Of a stretch of 36,707 nt of DNA, positions 9,132 through 32,293 are shown in pieces. The stretch is from a virus: positions 1 to 36,707 of the IMG/VR virus record IMGVR_UViG_3300045051_000005. The stretch is one strand, 5' to 3'. Numbering within the stretch: the first letter of the stretch is position 1; each line of letters starts with the position of its first letter. The notes under the pieces are model-generated. The model was not told the origin of the DNA. It did not search any database and saw only the letters and a program-made list of their open reading frames with translations. The translations under genes and the position numbers were made by a program.

Positions 9132-9193
9132 CAGAGTCTTTCAGCCACGTAGTCCACAAGCAGTATGACAACTGCACCAATAATCACAGCCAT
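9128..9193 (-). CDS. Membrane micropeptide (21 aa)
   Basis: A 21-residue ORF coding MAVIIGAVVILLVDYVAERL followed by Trp. Residues 2-13 are an uninterrupted hydrophobic helix, so this would be a single-pass inner-membrane peptide. Its ATG overlaps the small terminase stop as TGATG, and its TGA overlaps the next GTG as GTGA. These overlaps fit the start-stop chain of this operon and suggest real translation. It is shorter than normal gene-calling limits. A pure spacer role in translational coupling is the alternative. Confidence 0.55.
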   Translation of the reverse strand: MAVIIGAVVILLVDYVAERLW

Positions 9194-9756
9194 CACTCGT
9201 TCTCCAATCTCGGGGTCACATCGACCACCTCGGCCTCAATCACCCGGGCCTGAGCCTGCGCCAAGGCTTCTGTGATCGAGATCGTCCCGCCCACCTCGAT
9301 CTGCTTGGTTTCCCCGTACCGCTTGCGGTTGTGGGCACCCATGAGCCACTTGCGCGTGTCGATGCGCAGCTTGTCGCGGTTGACCGTCTCAGGGGCCGAT
9401 GCGTCGATGGAGTCCACCCCATCGGCAATCTCGAGAATCTCCCCGGCCAAGAACTCGGTGCGCATCTCCTGCGCTTCTTTGAACCGCTCGTGGCGCTGGG
9501 GGTCACGCTTGACCCAGCGCAGGAAGTCCTCATACGACACGAGTCGATGGTCGTCTTCGATGAGGGATTGCAGGGAGCGGCCCCGGTAAACGTCCTCGAT
9601 CACCCGCTCGAAGATTTGCTCATATTCGACATGGCGAAGGGCTTTGGACTCCGCAGGGAGCCTCGGGGGTTTGGGGTCTGGGCACGACAGCCAGTTTGGG
9701 AGTGGGGTTTCACCGGTGACAACCGTGCCTAGGGAATGAGGGTTTCCTTGTTCCAT
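9193..9756 (-). CDS. Small terminase subunit
   Basis: A 187-residue protein in the small-terminase position directly upstream of the large-subunit group. A proline-rich N-terminus leads to a helical DNA-binding part with IFERVIEDVYRGRSLQSLI and DDHRLVSYEDFLRWVKRD, which reads as a helix-turn-helix recognition unit, then a helical oligomerisation part (EMRTEFLAGEILEIADG) and RIDTRKWLMGAHNRKRYGE, a typical ending of this family. I chose the ATG at 9756. A longer frame reaches a GTG at 9843 but would run through the promoter. No ribosome site precedes this ATG. Confidence 0.85.
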   Translation of the reverse strand: MEQGNPHSLGTVVTGETPLPNWLSCPDPKPPRLPAESKALRHVEYEQIFERVIEDVYRGRSLQSLIEDDHRLVSYEDFLRWVKRDPQRHERFKEAQEMRTEFLAGEILEIADGVDSIDASAPETVNRDKLRIDTRKWLMGAHNRKRYGETKQIEVGGTISITEALAQAQARVIEAEVVDVTPRLENE

Positions 9757-9766
9757 AGTGGGTGTG

Positions 9767-9795
9767 AGTGTAGCAGGTGGATAACTGAGATGCAA
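9767..9795 (-). promoter_or_regulatory. Sigma-70-type promoter for the late/terminase operon
   Basis: On the minus strand TTGCAT and TACACT are separated by 17 bases, and TGC directly before TACACT makes an extended -10 element. The -35 box is weak (3 of 6). The predicted transcript would begin only about 3-4 bases before the small-terminase ATG, implying a nearly leaderless mRNA. The palindrome AACCCACTGGGTT lies just upstream, centred near -54. Confidence 0.62.
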
Positions 9796-9807: not shown

Positions 9808-9820
9808 AACCCACTGGGTT
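9808..9820. promoter_or_regulatory. Palindrome site 1 (AACCCACTGGGTT)
   Basis: A 13-base palindrome with 6-base arms. It lies upstream of the -35 box of the terminase promoter, a position more usual for an activator or a looping repressor than for simple blocking. Confidence 0.65.
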
Positions 9821-9967
9821 TTTGATTTTGAAAAAATTTTCACGGGTTCTGTGGTGCCTACGTAGCTGGACCATCGACCCCGCTGGCCCTACCCCCTCCC
9901 CTCGCGCCAGCGACCCCCGGGCACCACGGCAACCGGCACCCGGGCGCGGCACCCCCGGCACCCGCGC

Positions 9968-9978
9968 ACCCGCTGGGT
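9968..9978. promoter_or_regulatory. Palindrome site 2 (ACCCGCTGGGT)
   Basis: An ACCC-NNN-GGGT match in the middle of the divergent intergenic region. Confidence 0.6.
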
Positions 9979-10000
9979 TTGGGAATCGTGCGGATTCTCT

Positions 10001-10013
10001 GACCCGATGGGTC
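10001..10013. promoter_or_regulatory. Palindrome site 3 (GACCCGATGGGTC)
   Basis: Perfect 5-base arms GACCC/GGGTC around GAT, centred 34 bases from site 2. Confidence 0.62.
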
Positions 10014-10060
10014 AAGGTTCGCGGGGCCTTTTGGGTTTTGCGGGTGAATGAAACCCGCGC

Positions 10061-10072
10061 ACCCACTGGGTT
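10061..10072. promoter_or_regulatory. Palindrome site 4 (ACCCACTGGGTT)
   Basis: It has the same 11-base core as site 1, ACCCACTGGGT, in the central part of the region. Confidence 0.62.
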
Positions 10073-10090
10073 AGGGGTTCAATCGAGAAG

Positions 10091-10121
10091 CCGGGGAAAA
10101 CCGGGGAATTCCCGGGGAAAA
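10091..10121. repeat. CCGGGGAA repeat cluster
   Basis: Three copies of CCGGGGAA begin at 10091, 10101 and 10112, about one helical turn apart. The middle copy runs into GAATTCCCGG, forming a palindrome. Iteron-like spacing suggests protein binding on one DNA face; the role is unknown. Confidence 0.5.
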
Positions 10122-10125
10122 GTGC

Positions 10126-10136
10126 ACCCAGCGGGT
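10126..10136. promoter_or_regulatory. Palindrome site 5 (ACCCAGCGGGT)
   Basis: An ACCC-NNN-GGGT match immediately after the CCGGGGAA repeat cluster. Confidence 0.58.
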
Positions 10137-10305
10137 TAGAATTCCCGGTTTTGCGGGGGCTGGGGACAAAAAATCCTTTTCGCGCGCGCCCGACCCCTTG
10201 TTTTATACGATTTTGAAAAGGCACTTATTTTCTGGAATTCCCAAAATGCACCCCTAGAACCAAAAGGGCCAGTTGTCACCGGCGAACCAGTGAACCCGTA
10301 AACCC

Positions 10306-10318
10306 GACCCAGTGGGTC
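10306..10318. promoter_or_regulatory. Palindrome site 6 (GACCCAGTGGGTC)
   Basis: A perfect 13-base palindrome with 6-base arms, centred 61 bases upstream of site 7, which fits two bound dimers on the same or nearly the same DNA face. Confidence 0.66.
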
Positions 10319-10356
10319 AGGGAAAACACCTACAATCTTTTTTTTCGTGCTAGGGG

Positions 10357-10384
10357 TTGACACCTTGACCCAGTGGGTTACAAT
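10357..10384 (+). promoter_or_regulatory. Early promoter, TTGACA-N16-TACAAT
   Basis: The -35 hexamer is consensus and the -10 differs at one base. The spacer is 16 bases and contains palindrome site 7. The transcript would start near 10391 and lead into the 48-residue gene and the following plus-strand block. It is the strongest promoter match I find in the window. Confidence 0.75.
10368..10378. promoter_or_regulatory. Palindrome site 7, inside the early promoter spacer (ACCCAGTGGGT)
   Basis: The palindrome fills the last 11 bases of the 16-base spacer between TTGACA and TACAAT. A protein bound here would directly exclude RNA polymerase, so this is a classic repressor-operator position. Confidence 0.7.
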
Positions 10385-10427
10385 GAACCCGTGACACCGT
10401 AAACCGTAACCCCTCGAAAGGATGAAC

Positions 10428-10574
10428 ATGGACCGCCATAAGCTGACCTACGTTGATTTGCACCCCGCCCCCGTGGATACCGAAAAGGCCCCGCCATTGT
10501 GGGCGCAAGTGCTGGGGGCGATTGTCACCCTCGCCGCATTGTATGTTTCCCTTGTTTTTCTTTTTTCTCTGTAA
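10428..10574 (+). CDS. Small membrane protein (48 aa), first early gene
   Basis: A 48-residue protein: a polar N-terminus (MDRHKLTYVDLHP), then a hydrophobic helix from about residue 26 to 47 ending VFLFSL. It has a GAAAGGA ribosome site 5 bases before the ATG. As the first gene after the early promoter it could act on the host envelope, for example in superinfection exclusion, but that is inference from position and topology. I recognise no family. Confidence 0.62.
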   Translation: MDRHKLTYVDLHPAPVDTEKAPPLWAQVLGAIVTLAALYVSLVFLFSL

Positions 10575-10605
10575 CCCGTAACCGTAACCCTCGAAAGGAT
10601 CAACC

Positions 10606-10914
10606 ATGAACACTGCAACCGATACCCGCACCATCCTCGCCGCCGCCGTGGACCGCCTCGCCTTGATCAAGGCACGCATGGCGGAATTGAGCGCCGAGGA
10701 AAAGGCCCTTAAAGAAACCTTGACCGCCTCGGGCCTCGAGGCCATCGAGGGCACCGCGCACCGCGCCGCCATTTCCCAGTGCGCCGGGCGCGTTTCGATT
10801 GACTGGGAAACCATCGCCGCAAAATTCAACCCCTCGCGCCAGTTGATCGCCGCGCATACGTCAACCGGTGCACCCTATGCCGTGGTGCGCGTTTCCGCAC
10901 GTAAGGGGGCCTGA
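10606..10914 (+). CDS. Hypothetical early protein with coiled coil (102 aa)
   Basis: A 102-residue protein. Residues 14-45 are Ala/Leu/Glu/Lys-rich and should form a coiled coil (LALIKARMAELSAEEKAL); the rest contains IDWETIAAKFNPSRQLIAAH, a block I have seen in other phage hypothetical proteins. Its function is unknown. A GAAAGGATCAACC leader precedes the ATG, nearly the same as that of the gene before and two genes after. Confidence 0.75.
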   Translation: MNTATDTRTILAAAVDRLALIKARMAELSAEEKALKETLTASGLEAIEGTAHRAAISQCAGRVSIDWETIAAKFNPSRQLIAAHTSTGAPYAVVRVSARKGA

Positions 10915-10916
10915 TC

Positions 10917-11183
10917 ATGTTTCAGATTTTCGATTGTCTGAATAACCCAGTGGGCCGCGAAGCGGGCTATTTGAAGCATTCAACCGCTCAAGGCCTTGTA
11001 GAGCGCCCCGGGCGCATACGCCGCGCGATTTATGACACTTTCGCCCGGGTGCGCGGTGAAAACCCGCTACAGTGTCACGTGTACTCGATCCGCTGGGTTG
11101 ACCCCGTGGCCGTGACGATTATCAACCGCACCGGTATCCCCTCGGATCGCTTGATCGTCGCTCACGTAGGGGGTGCGGCATGA
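10917..11183 (+). CDS. Hypothetical early protein (88 aa)
   Basis: An 88-residue, arginine-rich protein without a recognised domain, two bases after the previous stop and overlapping the next gene as ATGA. A segment near the start (NNPVGREAGYL) is encoded over an imperfect copy of the ACCCAGTGGGT palindrome (10945-10955); this may be coincidence. Confidence 0.68.
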   Translation: MFQIFDCLNNPVGREAGYLKHSTAQGLVERPGRIRRAIYDTFARVRGENPLQCHVYSIRWVDPVAVTIINRTGIPSDRLIVAHVGGAA

Positions 11184-11854
11184 AATTTCACTTTATTCCC
11201 CAGTCGAGCAACCGCAAAACCGGGGCGATCCCGGTAACGTACACCGAGCGGGCATCGTGCCCGCCATCGTGCCCGCATTACCGGGCCGATTGTTACGCCG
11301 AGGATTTTTATACCCGCATGGCATGGGACAAAGTGCCCGAGCGGGGCGGCACCCTCGAGGCCCTTTGCTCATCGATCGCCGCATTACCCGAGGGTCAATT
11401 GTGGCGCATGAACGTGGCCGGGGATTTACCCGGCGAGGGTGAAACCGTGGACCCCGTCGCACTGGGTGAAATTGTGCGGGCAAATATCGGGCGGCGCGGG
11501 TTCACGTACACCCACAAGAAAAGCCCCGAGGCCATCGAATGGGCGACCCATGCTACGCGCTGGGGGTTCACCGTCAATCTGAGCGCCGATGATGCCGGGG
11601 ATGCCGATGCCCTCGCACCCTTTGGCCCCGTTTGCGCCATCGTGCCCACTGACACCCCCGAGAAAAGTTATACCCCCGAGGGGCGCACAATCATCGTGTG
11701 CCCCGCGCAAACCCGCGATGATGTCACGTGCGAAACATGCGGCCTTTGTGCCCGCGCTGATCGCGCCGTGATCATCGGATTCCGTGCCCACGGCACCCGC
11801 GCACGGGTTGCCGATGCCAAAGCCCGCCGGGTGATTCCTATTTTGAAAGGATGA
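11180..11854 (+). CDS. Cysteine-cluster protein (DUF7227/GP88-like), possible metal or Fe-S enzyme
   Basis: A 224-residue protein with two cysteine clusters: C27, C31 and C38 (ASCPPSCPHYRADCYAED) and C174, C184, C187 and C190 (VCPAQ...CETCGLC). Between them are alternating strands such as QLWRMNVAGDLPG, RRGFTYTHK and GFTVNLSADDAG that read like a barrel. The pattern matches a widespread family I know as DUF7227 or 'gene product 88', of unknown function; the CYAE block also resembles the phage Gp37/Gp68 radical-SAM-like proteins. An Fe-S or zinc site is likely; enzymatic activity is inference. ATGA overlap with the gene before. Confidence 0.75.
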   Translation: MKFHFIPQSSNRKTGAIPVTYTERASCPPSCPHYRADCYAEDFYTRMAWDKVPERGGTLEALCSSIAALPEGQLWRMNVAGDLPGEGETVDPVALGEIVRANIGRRGFTYTHKKSPEAIEWATHATRWGFTVNLSADDAGDADALAPFGPVCAIVPTDTPEKSYTPEGRTIIVCPAQTRDDVTCETCGLCARADRAVIIGFRAHGTRARVADAKARRVIPILKG

Positions 11855-11858
11855 ACAA

Positions 11859-12083
11859 ATGCCCCTCGATTTAATGACACTGCCCGCCCATGAGGCCGAG
11901 GCCCTCGCCTACGCCGAGGGATTTACCGGCACCGCTCGCCTATTTGCCCGGATCGCCGATTTACAAAAGGCCCTCGGTGAGGCCGTGGCCGAGATTGAAT
12001 CCTTGAAAAATATCCGTGATCAATTGGAAACCAACCTTTTTATCGCCCGCCATGATCGCGCATACGGGGGGCCGATGGATTGA
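11859..12083 (+). CDS. Hypothetical coiled-coil early protein (74 aa)
   Basis: A 74-residue helical protein; residues 25-60 form a probable coiled coil (IADLQKALGEAVAEIESL). It has the shared leader GAAAGGATGAACAA before the ATG. Its stop overlaps a TTG that could start a hydrophobic 24-residue ORF. Function is unknown. Confidence 0.68.
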   Translation: MPLDLMTLPAHEAEALAYAEGFTGTARLFARIADLQKALGEAVAEIESLKNIRDQLETNLFIARHDRAYGGPMD

Positions 12084-12154: not shown

Positions 12155-12167
12155 GCCCCGCACCCAG

Positions 12168-12198
12168 TGCCCCCGGATTAAACCCCGGGGGCATTTTT
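12168..12198 (+). terminator. Rho-independent terminator of the first early block
   Basis: A 9-bp stem TGCCCCCGG / CCGGGGGCA with an 8-base loop, followed by TTTTT. It separates the first early transcript from the helix-turn-helix gene, which has its own ribosome site just after it, so read-through is likely partial or a promoter lies nearby. Confidence 0.83.
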
Positions 12199-12219
12199 GA
12201 CCCTTGAAAGGATGAACCG

Positions 12220-12591
12220 ATGAACCCCGCACCCCTTACTCCCGCCGCTCAATTTGCCGAGGCCCTCGGGGCCTTTGTTGCCCGCCGTGCCCTCGATGAA
12301 CCCGCCGCCGCCGGGTTGCTGGGGGTGCCCGTTTTTACTTTTCGCAAATGGGCCACGGGCACCCGTGCACCCAGTGCCGCCGCCGTGCGGTTGCTCGATG
12401 TTTTTTGCACCCTTGAGGCCCTCGCCCCCGCCATGCTCGATTCTTTTGTGCCGCCCGTGCAGCAGGCGACACCGCGCAAACGTGGGCGGCTGGGAAATTT
12501 GCCCCCGAAATCGCGTCATGTCGAAAAATCCCGTTCCACCGACTCAATCGGTTCAAGTGCCGATTCGGTCATGTCGAAAAATCCCGTTTGA
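12220..12591 (+). CDS. Helix-turn-helix transcription regulator (XRE/Cro-like)
   Basis: A 123-residue protein. Residues 25-70 read as an XRE-type helix-turn-helix: EPAAAGLLGVPVFTFRKWAT, then GTRAPSAAAVRLLDVF. Such proteins bind short palindromes as dimers, which makes this the best candidate to bind the ACCC-NNN-GGGT sites 1.8-2.4 kb upstream. The C-terminal 40 residues are basic and low in complexity, and the DNA there carries a 21-bp direct repeat. The GAAAGGATGAACCG leader matches the other genes of the block. Confidence 0.75.
   Translation: MNPAPLTPAAQFAEALGAFVARRALDEPAAAGLLGVPVFTFRKWATGTRAPSAAAVRLLDVFCTLEALAPAMLDSFVPPVQQATPRKRGRLGNLPPKSRHVEKSRSTDSIGSSADSVMSKNPV
12515..12535 (+). repeat. 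21-bp direct repeat, copy 1
   Basis: GTCATGTCGAAAAATCCCGT plus T, inside the 3' end of the helix-turn-helix gene. An identical copy starts 53 bases later. Because 53 is not a multiple of three the two copies are read in different frames, so protein-level selection does not explain the repeat. Confidence 0.85.
12568..12588 (+). repeat. 21-bp direct repeat, copy 2
   Basis: Identical to copy 1 and ending at the stop codon of the helix-turn-helix gene. The bases between the copies are unrelated to those after copy 2, so this is not a simple tandem duplication of 53 bp. A binding site or a slipped-strand event at the gene's end are both possible. Confidence 0.85.
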
Positions 12592-13201: not shown

Positions 13202-13228
13202 AAGGCCCGGGATTACCGGGCCTTCTTT
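13202..13228. terminator. Bidirectional rho-independent terminator
   Basis: A 9-bp stem AAGGCCCGG / CCGGGCCTT with a 5-base loop. On the plus strand it is followed by CTTTATT; on the minus strand by UUUUGC. It lies between converging genes and can serve both. Confidence 0.8.
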
Positions 13229-15731
13229 ATTCCTCATCCATCGCGTCAGGGTCATACCCTTTGACCAGCTTGCGCTCATATCCCTTCTCGATGGCGTAGC
13301 GGTAGATGTAGTCGGCGTGGCGCTGCTTGGCCTTGATGACCTTCTCCCGGTATCCCTTGAACATGGCAGGCAGACTCGGGTTGATGGCCCAGACCACGCG
13401 CTTTTTGTGCAACTCGTTCTCAAGCTGCACGACCCATCCAGCCTGCTCCAGCACCAACATGGCATCCATGATCGCCTGATCTTTCTGCCAGTCGGTCTTG
13501 CCGTCCAGTGGACGCCGTGCTGACTTCTTCAGGGTGCGCAGGTCAATCATCTGCGTGTCCCCGCTGATCTGGATCACATGGTCAATGACCCACTGATCGA
13601 AGTCGTTCGTGATCGCACCACCCACCTCACCCAGCGAGTACCGGTAGGCCGGGATGATGTACCCACGCACCAGACTCACGACCCTGTGGACAACATCGAC
13701 TGACACCTGCGGAGAGAACGGGGACTCGATGATGTGGAACATGAGGATCAAGCGCCCTGCAAGACCCTCCAGTTTGCCGAACGCCGTCATGTACTCTGTG
13801 CCACTGTCCAGCACCCGCTCGTCCTGCTTGGCCTGCTCGTACCATGATTGGAACTCGCGGAAGGCTGTGAATGCTTCTGTGGATAAGTGGTAGGTCTGGG
13901 GCGGCAGCGCGTAGGTCAGGCGCAGGGTGTTCTCCCATGCGGCCGCACTGGTCATGTACTCGGGGATGGGCTGACCCAGCTTGGTCTTGCTCCCGCGCAG
14001 CACTGCGGGTATAAACCGCTGCAACAGGCCATCCGCTGCGAGAGAGGCCAAGTTTTGCCTGAACACTTGGGGCTGGATGTTCCCATAGATCGAAACCGCC
14101 AAGTTCTCGCAGTAGATCGAGCCAGCGCCCACCCGGTCCATCTCGTAGTGTTCTGACTCGTAGCTGACAACCCATGCCGAGCGATCCTCGCCGCTGGTCT
14201 TGTCTGTCAGCTTGCGCACCCATGAGTTCATCTCGTCGAGGTGGCACAGCAGGCCACGTGGACGGTCAGCAGCTTGGCGCACCAGCTTCTGACTCGTGAT
14301 GTCGGACACCGTGATCTTGAGCGGCACGGGCTGCGGGGGCATCTCGGGCACATGGGGTGCCTGATCCGCGCCCAGCATGGCCTCGGGGCTGGCTGAGAAC
14401 TCAAGGAACGCCTTCTTGGCACTCGCGTAGGCCGCTTCCTTGCCCTCCCAGTCCAGCAGTTCCTTGCCGTAGCGAGGCCGATCCTCGGCCTCGATGTTCT
14501 TAAGCGGGGACAACATCGGACGCGATCCGGGAGACTTCTTGTCCGCTGGATCGCCCAGGGTCATGAGCCACAACACTGGCGGGACACGGAACCCCGGCAT
14601 GAGTTCGAGCCGGATGCGGGCGTCAACGACCCCACAGACAGCGGCCAACCCAGCGAACAAAGGGACCAAAGGGTCACAGCCCACGCTTTCGCTGATCTCA
14701 AGGGATCGCTGGCGCAGGATGCCGGGCCACAGGTCCATGTTCATCTCGGGCGGCTTGGGGCGCAGGCCGTCCACCACGTCCAGCGGGTCCATGACCGGCA
14801 TGTCGATCTTGCTGAACAACTCGGACGCATCGGGCAGGGGACGCTGCCACCCGTGCTGCTTGGCGATATGAAACAGTGTCCCCAACTTGACAGCGGTGGC
14901 CTTGTCAGGCCGGAAGCTGATCCACTGCGTCAGGATTTCCCGCTCACCGGGGTACTTGAACTGAGCCGTGCTGCTCCACTCGTTCCACAGTTGCAGCGCC
15001 TGCTCAAGCTGGTCGGTCTGGGTGCCTGCCCAGTGCAGCGCCATGCCGATGGACACCCACTCGTCGCGGGTGCAGTCAGCGGGCACCGCATCGAGGGCTT
15101 GCCTGATCTCCTCCCACGAGGCGTCAACCGCGCCGCCCGTGCTGATCGTGCGCTCCTTGTCCTGCGCCAGCATCCCGTTCCACAGGTCCAGCAGGGGCTG
15201 GGGGATCATGGGCAAACGGGTCCAGTGACCATTGCCTGCCCAGTGATAGGGCTGGCGTGTCTCGGGGTGGATGCTTGGTGGCAGCACGTCCTGCACCGTG
15301 AGGCCGCTGACCGTGGCGCAGCGCAACTCGTAGGCGGTGATGCCGCTGTGCATGATCTTTTTTGATGGCAGCGCAGCACCGAAGGGCATCGAGTACAGCA
15401 GCTTGCCGTGCCCGGGCTTGCCCGAGTTGATCACCACGGCGTCGGGTGCATCGTAGAGGGCTTGCAGGTCGATGCCGTGTTGGGCCAGCAGGCTGGTGGT
15501 GACAGTCCAGTTGTCGATGTCCAGAGCCATCGTGCCGCTGTACGCATGGGCCAAACCGATCCCGTAGCCCGCTGGCAGGTCGTTTTGACTCTTGAGTGCA
15601 TTCTCGCGCAGGTTCCAGCCGGGAGTGCGTGGACCCTTGGTTCCCGCAGGAATGGGGACAAGGCTCCAGCCATGCCGGATGTAGGCGTCAATGGACGCAG
15701 GATGTGGTTGCACTGTCTGTGGTGCTGTCAT
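13227..15731 (-). CDS. Primase-polymerase with PriCT and DUF3987 helicase-like regions
   Basis: An 834-residue protein. The N-terminus (about 10-185) is an archaeo-eukaryotic-type primase-polymerase domain: the metal-binding pair in ALDIDN (D71, D73), GKPGHGKLLY (105-114) with His108, and VLPPSIHPET. Residues about 205-295 match PriCT-2 (WEEIRQALDAVPAD... WVSIGMALH). The remainder (about 330-780) resembles DUF3987, found fused to such primases. It would lay primers and perhaps unwind DNA at the phage origin. It is the only minus-strand gene inside the early region. Its ATG overlaps the stop of a 14-codon leader ORF and has only a weak ribosome site of its own. Confidence 0.88.
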   Translation of the reverse strand: MTAPQTVQPHPASIDAYIRHGWSLVPIPAGTKGPRTPGWNLRENALKSQNDLPAGYGIGLAHAYSGTMALDIDNWTVTTSLLAQHGIDLQALYDAPDAVVINSGKPGHGKLLYSMPFGAALPSKKIMHSGITAYELRCATVSGLTVQDVLPPSIHPETRQPYHWAGNGHWTRLPMIPQPLLDLWNGMLAQDKERTISTGGAVDASWEEIRQALDAVPADCTRDEWVSIGMALHWAGTQTDQLEQALQLWNEWSSTAQFKYPGEREILTQWISFRPDKATAVKLGTLFHIAKQHGWQRPLPDASELFSKIDMPVMDPLDVVDGLRPKPPEMNMDLWPGILRQRSLEISESVGCDPLVPLFAGLAAVCGVVDARIRLELMPGFRVPPVLWLMTLGDPADKKSPGSRPMLSPLKNIEAEDRPRYGKELLDWEGKEAAYASAKKAFLEFSASPEAMLGADQAPHVPEMPPQPVPLKITVSDITSQKLVRQAADRPRGLLCHLDEMNSWVRKLTDKTSGEDRSAWVVSYESEHYEMDRVGAGSIYCENLAVSIYGNIQPQVFRQNLASLAADGLLQRFIPAVLRGSKTKLGQPIPEYMTSAAAWENTLRLTYALPPQTYHLSTEAFTAFREFQSWYEQAKQDERVLDSGTEYMTAFGKLEGLAGRLILMFHIIESPFSPQVSVDVVHRVVSLVRGYIIPAYRYSLGEVGGAITNDFDQWVIDHVIQISGDTQMIDLRTLKKSARRPLDGKTDWQKDQAIMDAMLVLEQAGWVVQLENELHKKRVVWAINPSLPAMFKGYREKVIKAKQRHADYIYRYAIEKGYERKLVKGYDPDAMDEE

Positions 15732-16505: not shown

Positions 16506-17797
16506 GCGATCACGCCAAGCTGTCCCCCTCGAAGCGCAGCCGCTGGGCCTTGTGCCCCGGCAGCATTCGAGAGGAGGCCAAGTACCCTGACACCGGTAGC
16601 GGCCCCGCTGCTGCCGATGGCACCCACTCGCACACGCTGCTGGAGCACTGCATCAAGAACGGTCTGTCCGACCCAATGGATCAGGTAGGGGAAACCTTTG
16701 CCGATCACGAGGGTGAGTTCAAGGTCGATGCGGATCGTGCAGCGCGGGTCAAGGTTGCCATCGAGTACATCCGTGAGCGGTCCATGAACGGCATGTTCAA
16801 GGTGATCTCCGAGCAGCGCGTTGACCCCCAGCACCTGCTGGGTCGTGACGATCTCTCGGGTACCGTGGACTGCCAGATCATTGGCCCTGATTGGATCGAG
16901 ATCATCGACTACAAGGACGGCATGGGCGTGGTGAGCGCCGAGGGCAACATGCAGCTTGAGCAGTACGCCTACGGGGTGCTGGCAGGCTACAAGCTGCCCA
17001 TCAACGTCGAGTACCCCTGCAAGACGATCCGCATGACCATCATCCAGCCCAAGCTGGCTCTGAAGGGCATGAAGGCCATCACCTCGGCTGACCGCGATGT
17101 GCGTGACATGTTGACTAACATGAGTACAATCATCGTTCAGGCTGCTGCAACCGACAAACCGGATGCACCGCTTGTCCCGGGCGAAAGTCAATGTAAATTC
17201 TGCCGCGCCAAAGGCTCTTGCGCCGCGCTGGCAGGTAACGTAATGAAGGAGGTAGGAATCATGTTCCAACCAGTCGTAACTGAAACGCTCGATGTCGCGC
17301 AGCAATCTGCCGACAAAGACCCGGCCCAGATGGACGATCAGCAGATTCGTCAGATCATGGAAGCCGCACCCCTGATGCGCCAACTCCTCGAAGCCGTCGA
17401 GAAGGAAGCCCTGCGTCGTCTGGAGGCGGGCACTCCGATCCCCGGCCTCAAGCTGGTCCACGGTCGTGGCTCCCGTGCTTGGGCGCTGCCCGATGAGGAG
17501 ATGGCCGAGAAGCTGGTCAAGATGGGTATCCCCAAGACCGCGATCTACGAAACCAAACTCGTGTCCCCCGCCAAAGCTGAGAAGCTGACGTGGGAAAAGC
17601 GTGACGGCACCAAGGTGTCTCTGACCGACCGCCAACTCAAGCGCATGGAGCAGGAGTACGTCACCAAGCTGGCTGGCAAGCTGACCGTGGCCCCCGAATC
17701 TGACAGCCGCCCCGCTGTCATCACGAATGCTGCACCGATGTTCAGTGCAGTCGAGGCAGCACCCGCTGCCGAATCCCTGCCCTCGTGGCTTTCTTAA
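16502..17797 (+). CDS. RecB-like PD-(D/E)XK nuclease with Fe-S cysteines (DUF2800)
   Basis: A 431-residue protein of the DUF2800 family, a RecB/Cas4-like nuclease group. The active-site pattern appears in GTVD (120-123), IEIIDYKDG (132-140, D136 and K138) and QLEQYAYG (151-158). Four cysteines (C18 in ALCPGS, C231, C234, C240 in CKFCRAKGSC) match the Fe-S cluster of these nucleases. The C-terminal third is helical and of unknown role. It starts with GTG overlapping the preceding stop. In many phages it stands with DUF2815, polymerase, VRR-NUC and SNF2 genes, as here, and probably acts in replication or recombination. Confidence 0.88.
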   Translation: MSDHAKLSPSKRSRWALCPGSIREEAKYPDTGSGPAAADGTHSHTLLEHCIKNGLSDPMDQVGETFADHEGEFKVDADRAARVKVAIEYIRERSMNGMFKVISEQRVDPQHLLGRDDLSGTVDCQIIGPDWIEIIDYKDGMGVVSAEGNMQLEQYAYGVLAGYKLPINVEYPCKTIRMTIIQPKLALKGMKAITSADRDVRDMLTNMSTIIVQAAATDKPDAPLVPGESQCKFCRAKGSCAALAGNVMKEVGIMFQPVVTETLDVAQQSADKDPAQMDDQQIRQIMEAAPLMRQLLEAVEKEALRRLEAGTPIPGLKLVHGRGSRAWALPDEEMAEKLVKMGIPKTAIYETKLVSPAKAEKLTWEKRDGTKVSLTDRQLKRMEQEYVTKLAGKLTVAPESDSRPAVITNAAPMFSAVEAAPAAESLPSWLS

Positions 17798-22971: not shown

Positions 22972-23210
22972 ACCGCAAAGACATTATTCGCATGGCGCGT
23001 TCCGATGAGTGGGCAGCCGATGTGTCTTTGAAGTGGGATGATTTCTTTGTGCGCTTTGCCACTCTTGTCGTTGCTGCTGAGCGTGAGGCGTGTGCGAAGG
23101 TGTGTGAGGACATCTACAACGACCCCAAGGGTAACAATGGGGACGACTACTACTACACGCGCCCTTATCTTGAGTGCGCCGCCGCCATCCGCGCAAGGAG
23201 TCAATTGTGA
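22968..23210 (+). CDS. Hypothetical early protein (80 aa)
   Basis: An 80-residue protein, MNRKDIIRMARSDEWAAD followed by LVVAAEREACAKVCED and ending CAAAIRARS. The AEREACAKVCE block is common in small proteins of many phages (usually of unknown function). It overlaps both neighbours by 4 bases (ATGA before, GTGA after). Confidence 0.75.
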   Translation: MNRKDIIRMARSDEWAADVSLKWDDFFVRFATLVVAAEREACAKVCEDIYNDPKGNNGDDYYYTRPYLECAAAIRARSQL

Positions 23211-30139: not shown

Positions 30140-31558
30140 TTACTTCTTGAGCAGCGGGTTGTTCATGTCCACGCCGCCAGCGGGAGCAGCACTTGGAGTA
30201 CCACCGGAGCGGCCAGCGCGTTTCTGAGCGTTCTCGACACCCTTGCGAATCACGTCTTGCAGGTCCATTGCGGCGCGGATGAACTCTTTCTCGTCGGTCG
30301 AGGTAGACATCCGGTTAATGGCGTCGGTAGCCTTTGCACCTTCTTTTTCCGTGATCGCTCCACCACCTTTGAGCGACTCAAAGGCTTCGAGGAACGAGGC
30401 ACCCTTAATCTGGTCGAAACGAGACATGAAGCCCGCAGCGTCCGTGCCCGGGATGAATCGTGCGCCGGGAAGCCAAGTGGCACCCACGGCACCTTGGAAG
30501 CCGGGGTGAGGTTTCTCGCCCTTGAGCAGTTGGCCGGTTTTGGAGTCACGCTTGCCAATCAACTCGTCGATCAGGCGCACACCCTCCTCGGCACGGCTGA
30601 TGACCTTGGGCAACGCTTGCTGGGCCGTGACATCACCTTTGGCGATTGCTTCACCCACAGCCTTTGCGCCAGCCATGCGCTGCTGGAACGCAGGGTCAGC
30701 ATCCCGACGTGCGTTTTCTTCCAACACGGCAACACGGCGACCTTCCAAACCGATGCGCTGGCCTTCTTGCTTGATACGAGTAGCCTCGTTTTCCAGACGC
30801 TTCTCCTCGCCCGGAGCCATTGTTTTTTGCTGAGTGCCGACGGTGGTGAGTTCGCCAGTGATCGGCGCAAAGGTACGCGACACGACCTGACCACCAATGT
30901 CCGTGGTGGACAGTTGCGGCTTGTTCAGTTCCATGAACTTCTCGGTGCCCAGCTTCGACTCGTTGATCAGTCGAGCAAGACCACCGGGGGTCTGGATTAG
31001 TTGGGCGATGCGGCCACGGGACTGTTCAGCCGTCACACCACGAGCAGCCAATGCAGGCCCGATGATCGGGTCTTTATGGTTCGCCTCATGCCATGCGATA
31101 TACGCCTCGGCAGCACCGGGAGCGTTGGGGTCCAGCGTTTCAAGAAACCCGCGAGAACGCTTGAGCGCGGCGTCCAGAATCTCACCCTCGGTCTTGGTTT
31201 GAGTCAGACGTTGACCTGCAATCTCACCCTCAGTCTTCTGCTGGGTCAGACGCTGAGTCTTCAGTTCGCCCAGTTTCTTCTCAATGTCGGGCAGCTTGGA
31301 ACCATAGCCACCGGTCGCCAGCGATTGACGCAAGCGATTGATGTCCACGTCCCCGGTCTGCGGGTTGTAGGCTTCGCGGTATGCTGCGTTCAGGGCGTTG
31401 GTGGCTTCTTGCTCACGCTCGGCCTGACGCATCTGCAACTGGGCCAGCGCATTCTGCTGCTGCGCACCTTGAATTGCGGCAACTTTGCCGTACTGAGCCA
31501 GTGGGTCTGCAAGTTCGATCCCTCGAACACCCATTGCGATTGCGGGATTGACAGCCAT
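30140..31558 (-). CDS. Ejection (internal virion) protein, gp20-position (472 aa)
   Basis: A 472-residue helical protein, close in length to P22 gp20 (471). The start (NPAIAMGVRGIELADPLAQY) and the following Gln/Glu/Ala coiled coil (about 25-75) resemble internal virion proteins of podophages. Two near-repeats with GELKTQRLTQQKTEGEIAGQ and RLTQTKTEGEI occur near residues 93-122. The C-terminus has a conserved-looking region on DAAGFMSRFDQIKGASFLEA. Gap of 9 bases to each neighbour. Confidence 0.76.
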   Translation of the reverse strand: MAVNPAIAMGVRGIELADPLAQYGKVAAIQGAQQQNALAQLQMRQAEREQEATNALNAAYREAYNPQTGDVDINRLRQSLATGGYGSKLPDIEKKLGELKTQRLTQQKTEGEIAGQRLTQTKTEGEILDAALKRSRGFLETLDPNAPGAAEAYIAWHEANHKDPIIGPALAARGVTAEQSRGRIAQLIQTPGGLARLINESKLGTEKFMELNKPQLSTTDIGGQVVSRTFAPITGELTTVGTQQKTMAPGEEKRLENEATRIKQEGQRIGLEGRRVAVLEENARRDADPAFQQRMAGAKAVGEAIAKGDVTAQQALPKVISRAEEGVRLIDELIGKRDSKTGQLLKGEKPHPGFQGAVGATWLPGARFIPGTDAAGFMSRFDQIKGASFLEAFESLKGGGAITEKEGAKATDAINRMSTSTDEKEFIRAAMDLQDVIRKGVENAQKRAGRSGGTPSAAPAGGVDMNNPLLKK

Positions 31559-31567
31559 GTGTGCTCC

Positions 31568-32293
31568 TTAGAAACGACCGCCGCCCAACGAGTAATCCGG
31601 TGTAAACGAATAACTTGCCGAGGGGGTGTAACCAACAGGGGCCGCAGCCGTTGGTGGACGAAGTGCGTTCATCATGTTTTGACCCTGCGAGTAGTTCAGG
31701 TAGGTGCCTAAGCCTTGGGTCAGTGCGTTGGCACCACCCACATAACCCGATGCACGAGCAGCAGCACCGCTGGTAAGGGTTTCCCCTACGTTTGCGGCAG
31801 TGCGCATACCGGCCTCGCCGATTTGTTGAGCGGTCGTTTGACCGACACCGGCCAGAGATTGCAAAGGTTGCAACCGCGCCGCCCGCTCGGTCTGATATCG
31901 GTTGAATGCGTTGGAGTATTCTTGCGATCCAAGGTCTTGCCCGAATCGCTGGATGCCTTTGAGCATACCGCCAGACAGCAGGCCACCACGGGCCGCAGCA
32001 GATCGCTCCAGCGCCTTCATGCCTTCAGACATGCGGAAACCATACCCCGGGTCAGCTTGGAACTGCTGCATCCCGAACGGGGTGTACTCTGTTGCCAGAG
32101 GCACCAACTTGTTGAGGGCAACCTCGCCAGCTTGACGCCACGGTTCAGAAAGCTGAACTTGGCGCTCAAACATGCGCTCCTGCCCCTCGGCAGAGCGATC
32201 AGCAGCCGCAGCTTGCGTACTGGCTGCACTTCTGGCGGAACTCGCCCCAATGAGAGAACTGCCGACAACGGCACCAGCAACCCAAAAAGTCAT
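31568..32293 (-). CDS. Ejection / DNA transfer protein, P22 gp7-like (241 aa)
   Basis: A 241-residue protein (P22 gp7 is about 229). It starts with a glycine-rich hydrophobic segment (FWAGAV-like: WVAGAVVGSSLIGASSARSA) able to contact membranes, then a helical part with ERQVQLSEPWRQAGEVAL and the family block DPGYGFRMSEGMKALERSAA followed by RGGLLSGG. It ends in a flexible Pro/Ser/Tyr tail. It would be expelled before or with the genome. The ATG overlaps the cupin stop as ATGA. Confidence 0.84.
   Translation of the reverse strand: MTFWVAGAVVGSSLIGASSARSAASTQAAAADRSAEGQERMFERQVQLSEPWRQAGEVALNKLVPLATEYTPFGMQQFQADPGYGFRMSEGMKALERSAAARGGLLSGGMLKGIQRFGQDLGSQEYSNAFNRYQTERAARLQPLQSLAGVGQTTAQQIGEAGMRTAANVGETLTSGAAARASGYVGGANALTQGLGTYLNYSQGQNMMNALRPPTAAAPVGYTPSASYSFTPDYSLGGGRF

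Follow-up and report, generated by a model that had tools for sequence, protein, structure and literature searches.

A Conserved Operator-Like Palindrome in the Early Promoter Spacer of Uncultured Freshwater Phages Suggests a Self-Repressing Early Operon

Introduction

Why would a phage without a recognizable integrase carry an operator-like palindrome inside the spacer of its main early promoter? This question is raised by a stretch of DNA of 36,707 bases (hereafter the window), the genome record of a bacteria-infecting freshwater virus; among named phages, the nearest relative found is DSL-LC05 (OR003940). A sequence-only reading of the window had interpreted the arrangement as repressor geometry, had called it unexpected for a phage lacking an integrase, and had proposed a role in timing, superinfection immunity or a pseudolysogenic state. 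The word "unexpected" is too strong, since phage-encoded Aca proteins are already known to govern self-repressing operons through an inverted repeat inside the core promoter (as described in passages of PMC9410906). New here are the large array of sites, the hairpin preceding the regulator gene, and the spread of this arrangement through a group of uncultured phages.

Results

The early promoter of the window (10357-10384, plus strand) consists of the -35 hexamer TTGACA (10357-10362), a 16-nt spacer, CCTTGACCCAGTGGGT, and the -10 hexamer TACAAT (10379-10384), with a predicted transcription start at about position 10391. The portion of the spacer abutting the -10 hexamer is occupied by an 11-bp palindrome, ACCCAGTGGGT (10368-10378), both 4-bp arms of which match exactly; the layout claimed by the sequence-only reading is thus confirmed. 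Its designation as the strongest promoter of the window also holds, in terms of consensus match only, as it is the sole 11-of-12 match in a sigma70-like scan of the whole window, where the runners-up at 17103 and 26895 reach 10 of 12. The equivalent promoter of DSL-LC05 reads TTGACA-16-TAGAAT and its spacer carries ACCCAGTGGGT as well, and TTGACA is retained in most relatives sharing this geometry. We infer from these sequences that a repressor would bind, and act, at the spacer site.

The spacer palindrome belongs to a group of seven perfect ACCC-N3-GGGT palindromes within the 671-nt divergent region between the start of the terminase small subunit gene terS (9756) and that of the early genes (10428); they begin at positions 9809, 9968, 10002, 10061, 10126, 10307, and 10368, and six of them had been missing from the sequence-only reading. 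Seven sites compare with a mean of 0.07 and a maximum of 2 in 2000 dinucleotide shuffles of these 671 nt. The whole window holds eight perfect ACCCNNNGGGT sites (100 dinucleotide shuffles gave 0.66 on average and never more than 3), the eighth being located outside this region, at 23122. The closest neighbor of the promoter operator, ACCCAGTGGGT (10307-10317), lies 61 nt upstream of it, and 58-61 nt is the commonest distance between these two sites among the relatives. Further putative operators detected by the palindrome scan are ACCCAGCGGGT (10126-10136), ACCCACTGGGT (10061-10071), ACCCGATGGGT (10002-10012), and ACCCGCTGGGT (9968-9978), followed on the terS side by O1, again ACCCACTGGGT (9809-9819), which directly adjoins an A/T tract (9820-9843). 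An imperfect copy with one mismatch, ACCCAGTGGGC (10945-10955), is found inside an early gene, possibly by chance. No support was obtained for helical phasing of the promoter operator with its neighbor (periods of 9.5-11.5 bp, R 0.11-0.35), and Rfam gave no match between 9700 and 13300. The stretch between the two promoter-proximal operators, AGGGAAAACACCTACAATCTTTTTTTT (10318-10345), has similar counterparts in DSL-LC05 and several relatives. Conservation was suggested by eye for a YAGGG-N-CCYTA element close to the promoter, yet it is present in only 15 of the 86 control regions described below and was dropped.

The control region is bounded by terS on the minus strand (9193-9756; phrog_1482, E=6.7e-24), in front of which a weak promoter-like TTGCAT-17-TACACT was noted by eye (9767-9795, minus strand); this assignment is speculative, and the distance of the element to O1 varies among relatives. 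Rightward, on the plus strand, follow five early genes (10428-12083, comprising 10428-10574, 10606-10914, 10917-11183, 11180-11854, and 11859-12083), for which searches in general protein-family libraries returned no informative match except DUF7227 for the fourth. Downstream on the same strand lies the gene of a 123-residue Xre-type HTH protein, P0002 (12220-12591), a probable repressor whose DSL-LC05 counterpart is annotated as "repressor protein C". The early region continues with other small genes and ends at a terminator-like hairpin detected by the terminator scan (13202-13224, plus strand). Directly ahead of their start codons, the leaders of the first two early genes (10397-10427 and 10575-10604) share a repeated CCGTAACC...TCGAAAGGAT-AAC, and a similar repeat occurs in DSL-LC05.

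Relatives were collected by searching viral contigs with the neighboring gene P0003, the TerS protein and the HTH alignment, each search giving 80 loci (71 of those from the HTH alignment being new). Together with DSL-LC05 and the window, these loci yielded 86 distinct terS-side control regions, 65 of which predate the HTH search; in the first 1600 nt of these 65 regions, the number of sites has a median of 6 and ranges from 1 to 12. In 56 of the 86 regions, a promoter-like match sharing the geometry of the window has a site in its spacer, and in 70 some site is promoter-linked when those overlapping the -35 hexamer are included, while 16 have no such call; these counts, and the locus counts below, are not independent because the relatives share ancestry. 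Per site, promoter-spacer placement is about 100 times more frequent than background (57 of 529 sites vs. 146 of 133,144 other positions). A search of viral_contigs for the promoter-plus-operator pattern retrieved 30 stretches (L006-L035), and in the query-protein comparison 30 loci were without a match to any of the four query proteins. One record obtained by the pattern search, G018 (the record of L011), has no HTH match and was not counted as a relative.

The presence of the array goes along with that of the HTH gene. After removal of 19 loci with short flanks and 33 duplicates, 48 of 100 P0003 loci remained: 25 possess the HTH gene and an array of at least four sites, 21 possess neither, and two carry a divergent HTH gene without the array. 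Part of this co-occurrence could be due to common ancestry, because the 21 loci lacking both belong to more distant phages. Among the 71 newly fetched HTH-family loci, eight had too short a flank, and at least three sites were found in 59 of the 63 usable ones. The exceptions (L250, L251, L252, and L254) have a degenerate array together with their close kin L125 and L128, although the HTH protein of L125 carries the common recognition helix; L125 and L128 retain near matches, one of them at a promoter-like TTGACA. In L121 and L122, sites are present and the HTH gene was not found, the L122 record stopping inside the early operon. Where the recognition helix itself diverges from the common VPVFTLRKW, which is the case in two lineages only, the array is altered or absent: L083 (APVTTVRKW) has ACCCAATGGCC-type repeats in place of the palindromes of the window, and L071 (VENATYRKW) has TGACAAATTGAC repeats, window-type palindromes being absent. 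PrimPol is likewise diverged in both of these lineages (62-66%).

Repeated sites next to an A/T tract are typical of replication origins, and an A/T run follows the O1-like GGGT in 86 of 86 control regions, that of the window included. The palindromes could hence be iterons or sites of the primase-helicase PrimPol, encoded nearby, with their promoter placement merely coupling transcription to replication. We regard this as unlikely. The sites occupy promoter spacers about 100 times as often as background positions do, the cumulative GC skew does not turn at 10 kb, and the array is kept in L260-L271 at 65-66% PrimPol identity (one shorter match, in L268, being at 42%) and absent in L071 at 66%. 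TerS of L260-L271 is 51-58% identical, and retention of the array despite the divergence of both proteins counts against either of them as its reader. A role of the palindromes as packaging (pac) site, with the terminase small subunit as the binding protein, might be suggested by the adjoining position of terS and the extension of the array close to the terS start, but is extremely improbable: the array persists at TerS identities of 51-59%, yet is degenerate in L125 and L128 at 88%, and sites are placed in the promoter spacer. Terminase binding was therefore rejected on the distribution and conservation of the sites. The PrimPol gene of the window is located on the minus strand (13227-15731); the DSL-LC05 record (L005:37021-1950) lists it on the plus strand, apparently a strand error.

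Nearly every relative has O1 and its A/T tract on the terS side, which could mean that the HTH protein is an activator as well, repressing the early promoter and turning on a leftward terS/late promoter from O1. However, the position of O1 relative to the terS start varies widely among relatives and is ill-suited to a fixed activator site, and we consider such a dual role rather unlikely.

The HTH gene of the window is directly preceded by a hairpin with a T-run (12167-12199, plus strand), a putative leaky intrinsic terminator that was found with a custom script and is missing from the general terminator scan. It folds with -22.5 kcal/mol (z -4.65). Of 72 distinct relatives, 64 have a stem-loop with a T-run at a distance of 18-35 nt upstream of the HTH start, as opposed to 5 of 720 shuffled windows, and at least four of the eight misses (L152, L161, L166, and L258) show, by eye, a stem with a shorter T-run. 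The hairpins comprise 30 distinct stems with compensatory changes, and differing Watson-Crick pairs occur at most stem positions. A stricter first test on an overlapping set gave 44 of 52 before HTH genes, some about 100 nt away, compared with none of 29 for P0003 and 6 of 26 for P0005. As there is too little space for a separate promoter between hairpin and HTH gene, the latter is likely expressed by read-through, and the repressor would thus probably be made by polymerases passing the hairpin. In the one open-access library covered, no equivalent arrangement, with a terminator placed ahead of the repressor gene of a phage, was recognized in the excerpts of papers that it provided.

The AlphaFold2 model of P0002 has an HTH fold of five helices and is confident over approximately residues 10-75. 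Fold comparison is led by HigA2 (Z 9.3), with MqsA next (8.3), and a profile built from 37 members of the HTH family places the E. coli MqsA HTH first among solved structures (E 0.003). Foldseek found no PDB match for the model at E 0.001 or below, and all Pfam and NCBIfam matches of P0002 remain under the curated cut-offs, including the MqsA-type TIGR03830 (13.2 bits, cut-off 61.8). MqsA possesses an N-terminal CxxC zinc-binding domain; P0002, with its single cysteine, does not, and no MqsR toxin was recognized beside it. The operators nevertheless resemble each other: the MqsA site of E. coli and Pseudomonas putida, ACCT-N3-AGGT, is likewise an 11-bp palindrome with the 4-3-4 layout of the phage ACCC-N3-GGGT, its three central bases are reported to be irrelevant, and the difference lies in the inner half-site base, C in the phage site and T in that of MqsA (passages of PMC5422877 and PMC4894380). 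We take this resemblance as a pointer to how P0002 might bind DNA, not as a sign of family membership. Many HTH relatives (alignment A2) end in a KRPRGRP tail, presumably an AT-hook-like motif, the counterpart of which in the window is RKRGRL (12480-12500); the A/T tract beside O1 occurs also where this tail is absent.

Multiple operators around a main early promoter, and the name "repressor protein C" given to the HTH gene in DSL-LC05, would also befit an immunity or lysogeny region, in which the HTH protein silences an integrase-less episomal or pseudolysogenic phage or excludes superinfecting phages. The lack of a visible integrase noted by the sequence-only reading is supported: among 20 records (the window, 17 relatives, DSL-LC05, and the non-relative G018; the virus records are classed as linear and possibly incomplete), none matches the integrase family PF00589, and DSL-LC05 is predicted to be virulent by BACPHLIP (according to a passage of PMC10611076). 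The partitioning protein ParA (PF13614) was likewise found in none of the 20, and the resolvase family PF00239 matched only in G018, which was set aside. A TerL scan of genome_contigs, in which the host is possibly not represented, yielded one relative only, located on a contig of 3,187 bases from a gammaproteobacterial MAG. Among plasmids, no TerL match reached 60% identity, the best being at about 37%. This absence of close prophages is weak evidence against lysogeny. In addition, the HTH gene lies inside the operon to be silenced and should therefore shut off its own synthesis. Collectively, we judge this explanation very unlikely. Immunity and pseudolysogeny are thus unsupported among the proposed roles, because integrase, ParA, and a close prophage or plasmid were not found, whereas timing fits best.

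Discussion

Conservation of the site in the core promoter and the presence of the HTH gene in the same operon lend good support to the repressor geometry claimed for this locus. We consider it likely, on sequence grounds, that the early operon is self-repressing, has the spacer site as its promoter-proximal operator, and works as an Aca-like negative-feedback timer. Upon infection, host RNA polymerase would start near position 10391 and transcribe the five early genes, and some polymerases would pass the leaky hairpin to produce the HTH protein. As it accumulates, this protein, probably as a dimer, would bind ACCC-N3-GGGT in the spacer and block the polymerase, the other six sites possibly providing extra occupancy or a reach to the terS side. 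Early transcription would come in a burst and then be shut off.

This model resembles the Aca operons in that a small HTH gene is located downstream, on the same strand, in what would be the operon under its control, and in that an inverted repeat resides inside the core promoter (the arrangement given in passages of PMC9410906). P0002 also matches the folds of Aca10, Aca2, and Aca7, at Z values of about 7 that are within the range of common HTH proteins and may reflect just a widespread HTH arrangement. There are differences as well. Whereas one or two sites are described for Aca promoters, about six are present here; a hairpin with a T-run precedes the regulator gene; P0002 has at most 21% identity to the listed Aca structures and no NCBIfam match above cut-off; and an anti-CRISPR gene was not recognized with the libraries mentioned above. 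Concerning Aca1 and early transcription, nothing relevant came up in the one open-access library covered; for virulent phages with early repressors, the same library pointed to the Aca literature.

In phage lambda, Cro, a protein of the early operon, shuts off its own promoter. The locus studied here shares this logic, and operators overlapping the main early promoter, with the OR/PR region bound by CI and Cro. It differs from lambda by the lack of an integrase and of a divergent CI-type gene beside the operators, which are flanked by terS and the early genes instead, by the exact placement of the site in the spacer, and by a repressor gene that comes only after several other genes and a hairpin.

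A more far-reaching scheme, which we put forward as possible but doubtful, is that of an integrase-less lineage with a hard-wired early timer, in which a strong early promoter with the spacer operator is combined with a repressor made by read-through only, so that shut-off is delayed, an array of about six sites acts on the terS side as well (one small HTH protein turning early genes off and helping late genes on), and regulator and operator are exchanged as a pair in divergent lineages (ACCC-N3-GGGT, ACCCAATGGCC, and possibly GTTTA-N2-TAAAC).

The locus offers promoter, operator and repressor as a testable set from freshwater phages that form a large uncultured group. It also suggests that lysogeny need not follow from the presence of a repressor gene in a phage. 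A delay circuit, which could be measured directly, is predicted from the conserved hairpin preceding this gene, and the likeness of the operator to that of MqsA suggests how the HTH family of P0002 may read DNA.

Many copies of one repressor site are also a feature of the stoperators of mycobacteriophages. These are, however, asymmetric and distributed genome-wide, while the sites of the window are palindromic and seven of the eight lie within 9809-10378; genome-wide stoperators were consequently rejected on the distribution and conservation of the sites.

Two further phages deserve mention for repeats of other sequence. Phage MW202483, whose portal protein is 69% identical, has six GTTTA-N2-TAAAC palindromes and no ACCC-N3-GGGT in the corresponding region (L272:28220-28590), and encodes a protein annotated as DnaA-type HTH at 31423-31719. 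In Rhodoferax phage P26218, a non-coding stretch close to the terminase genes (L273:33318-33648) contains TTGTAGCAG/CTGCTACAA repeats.
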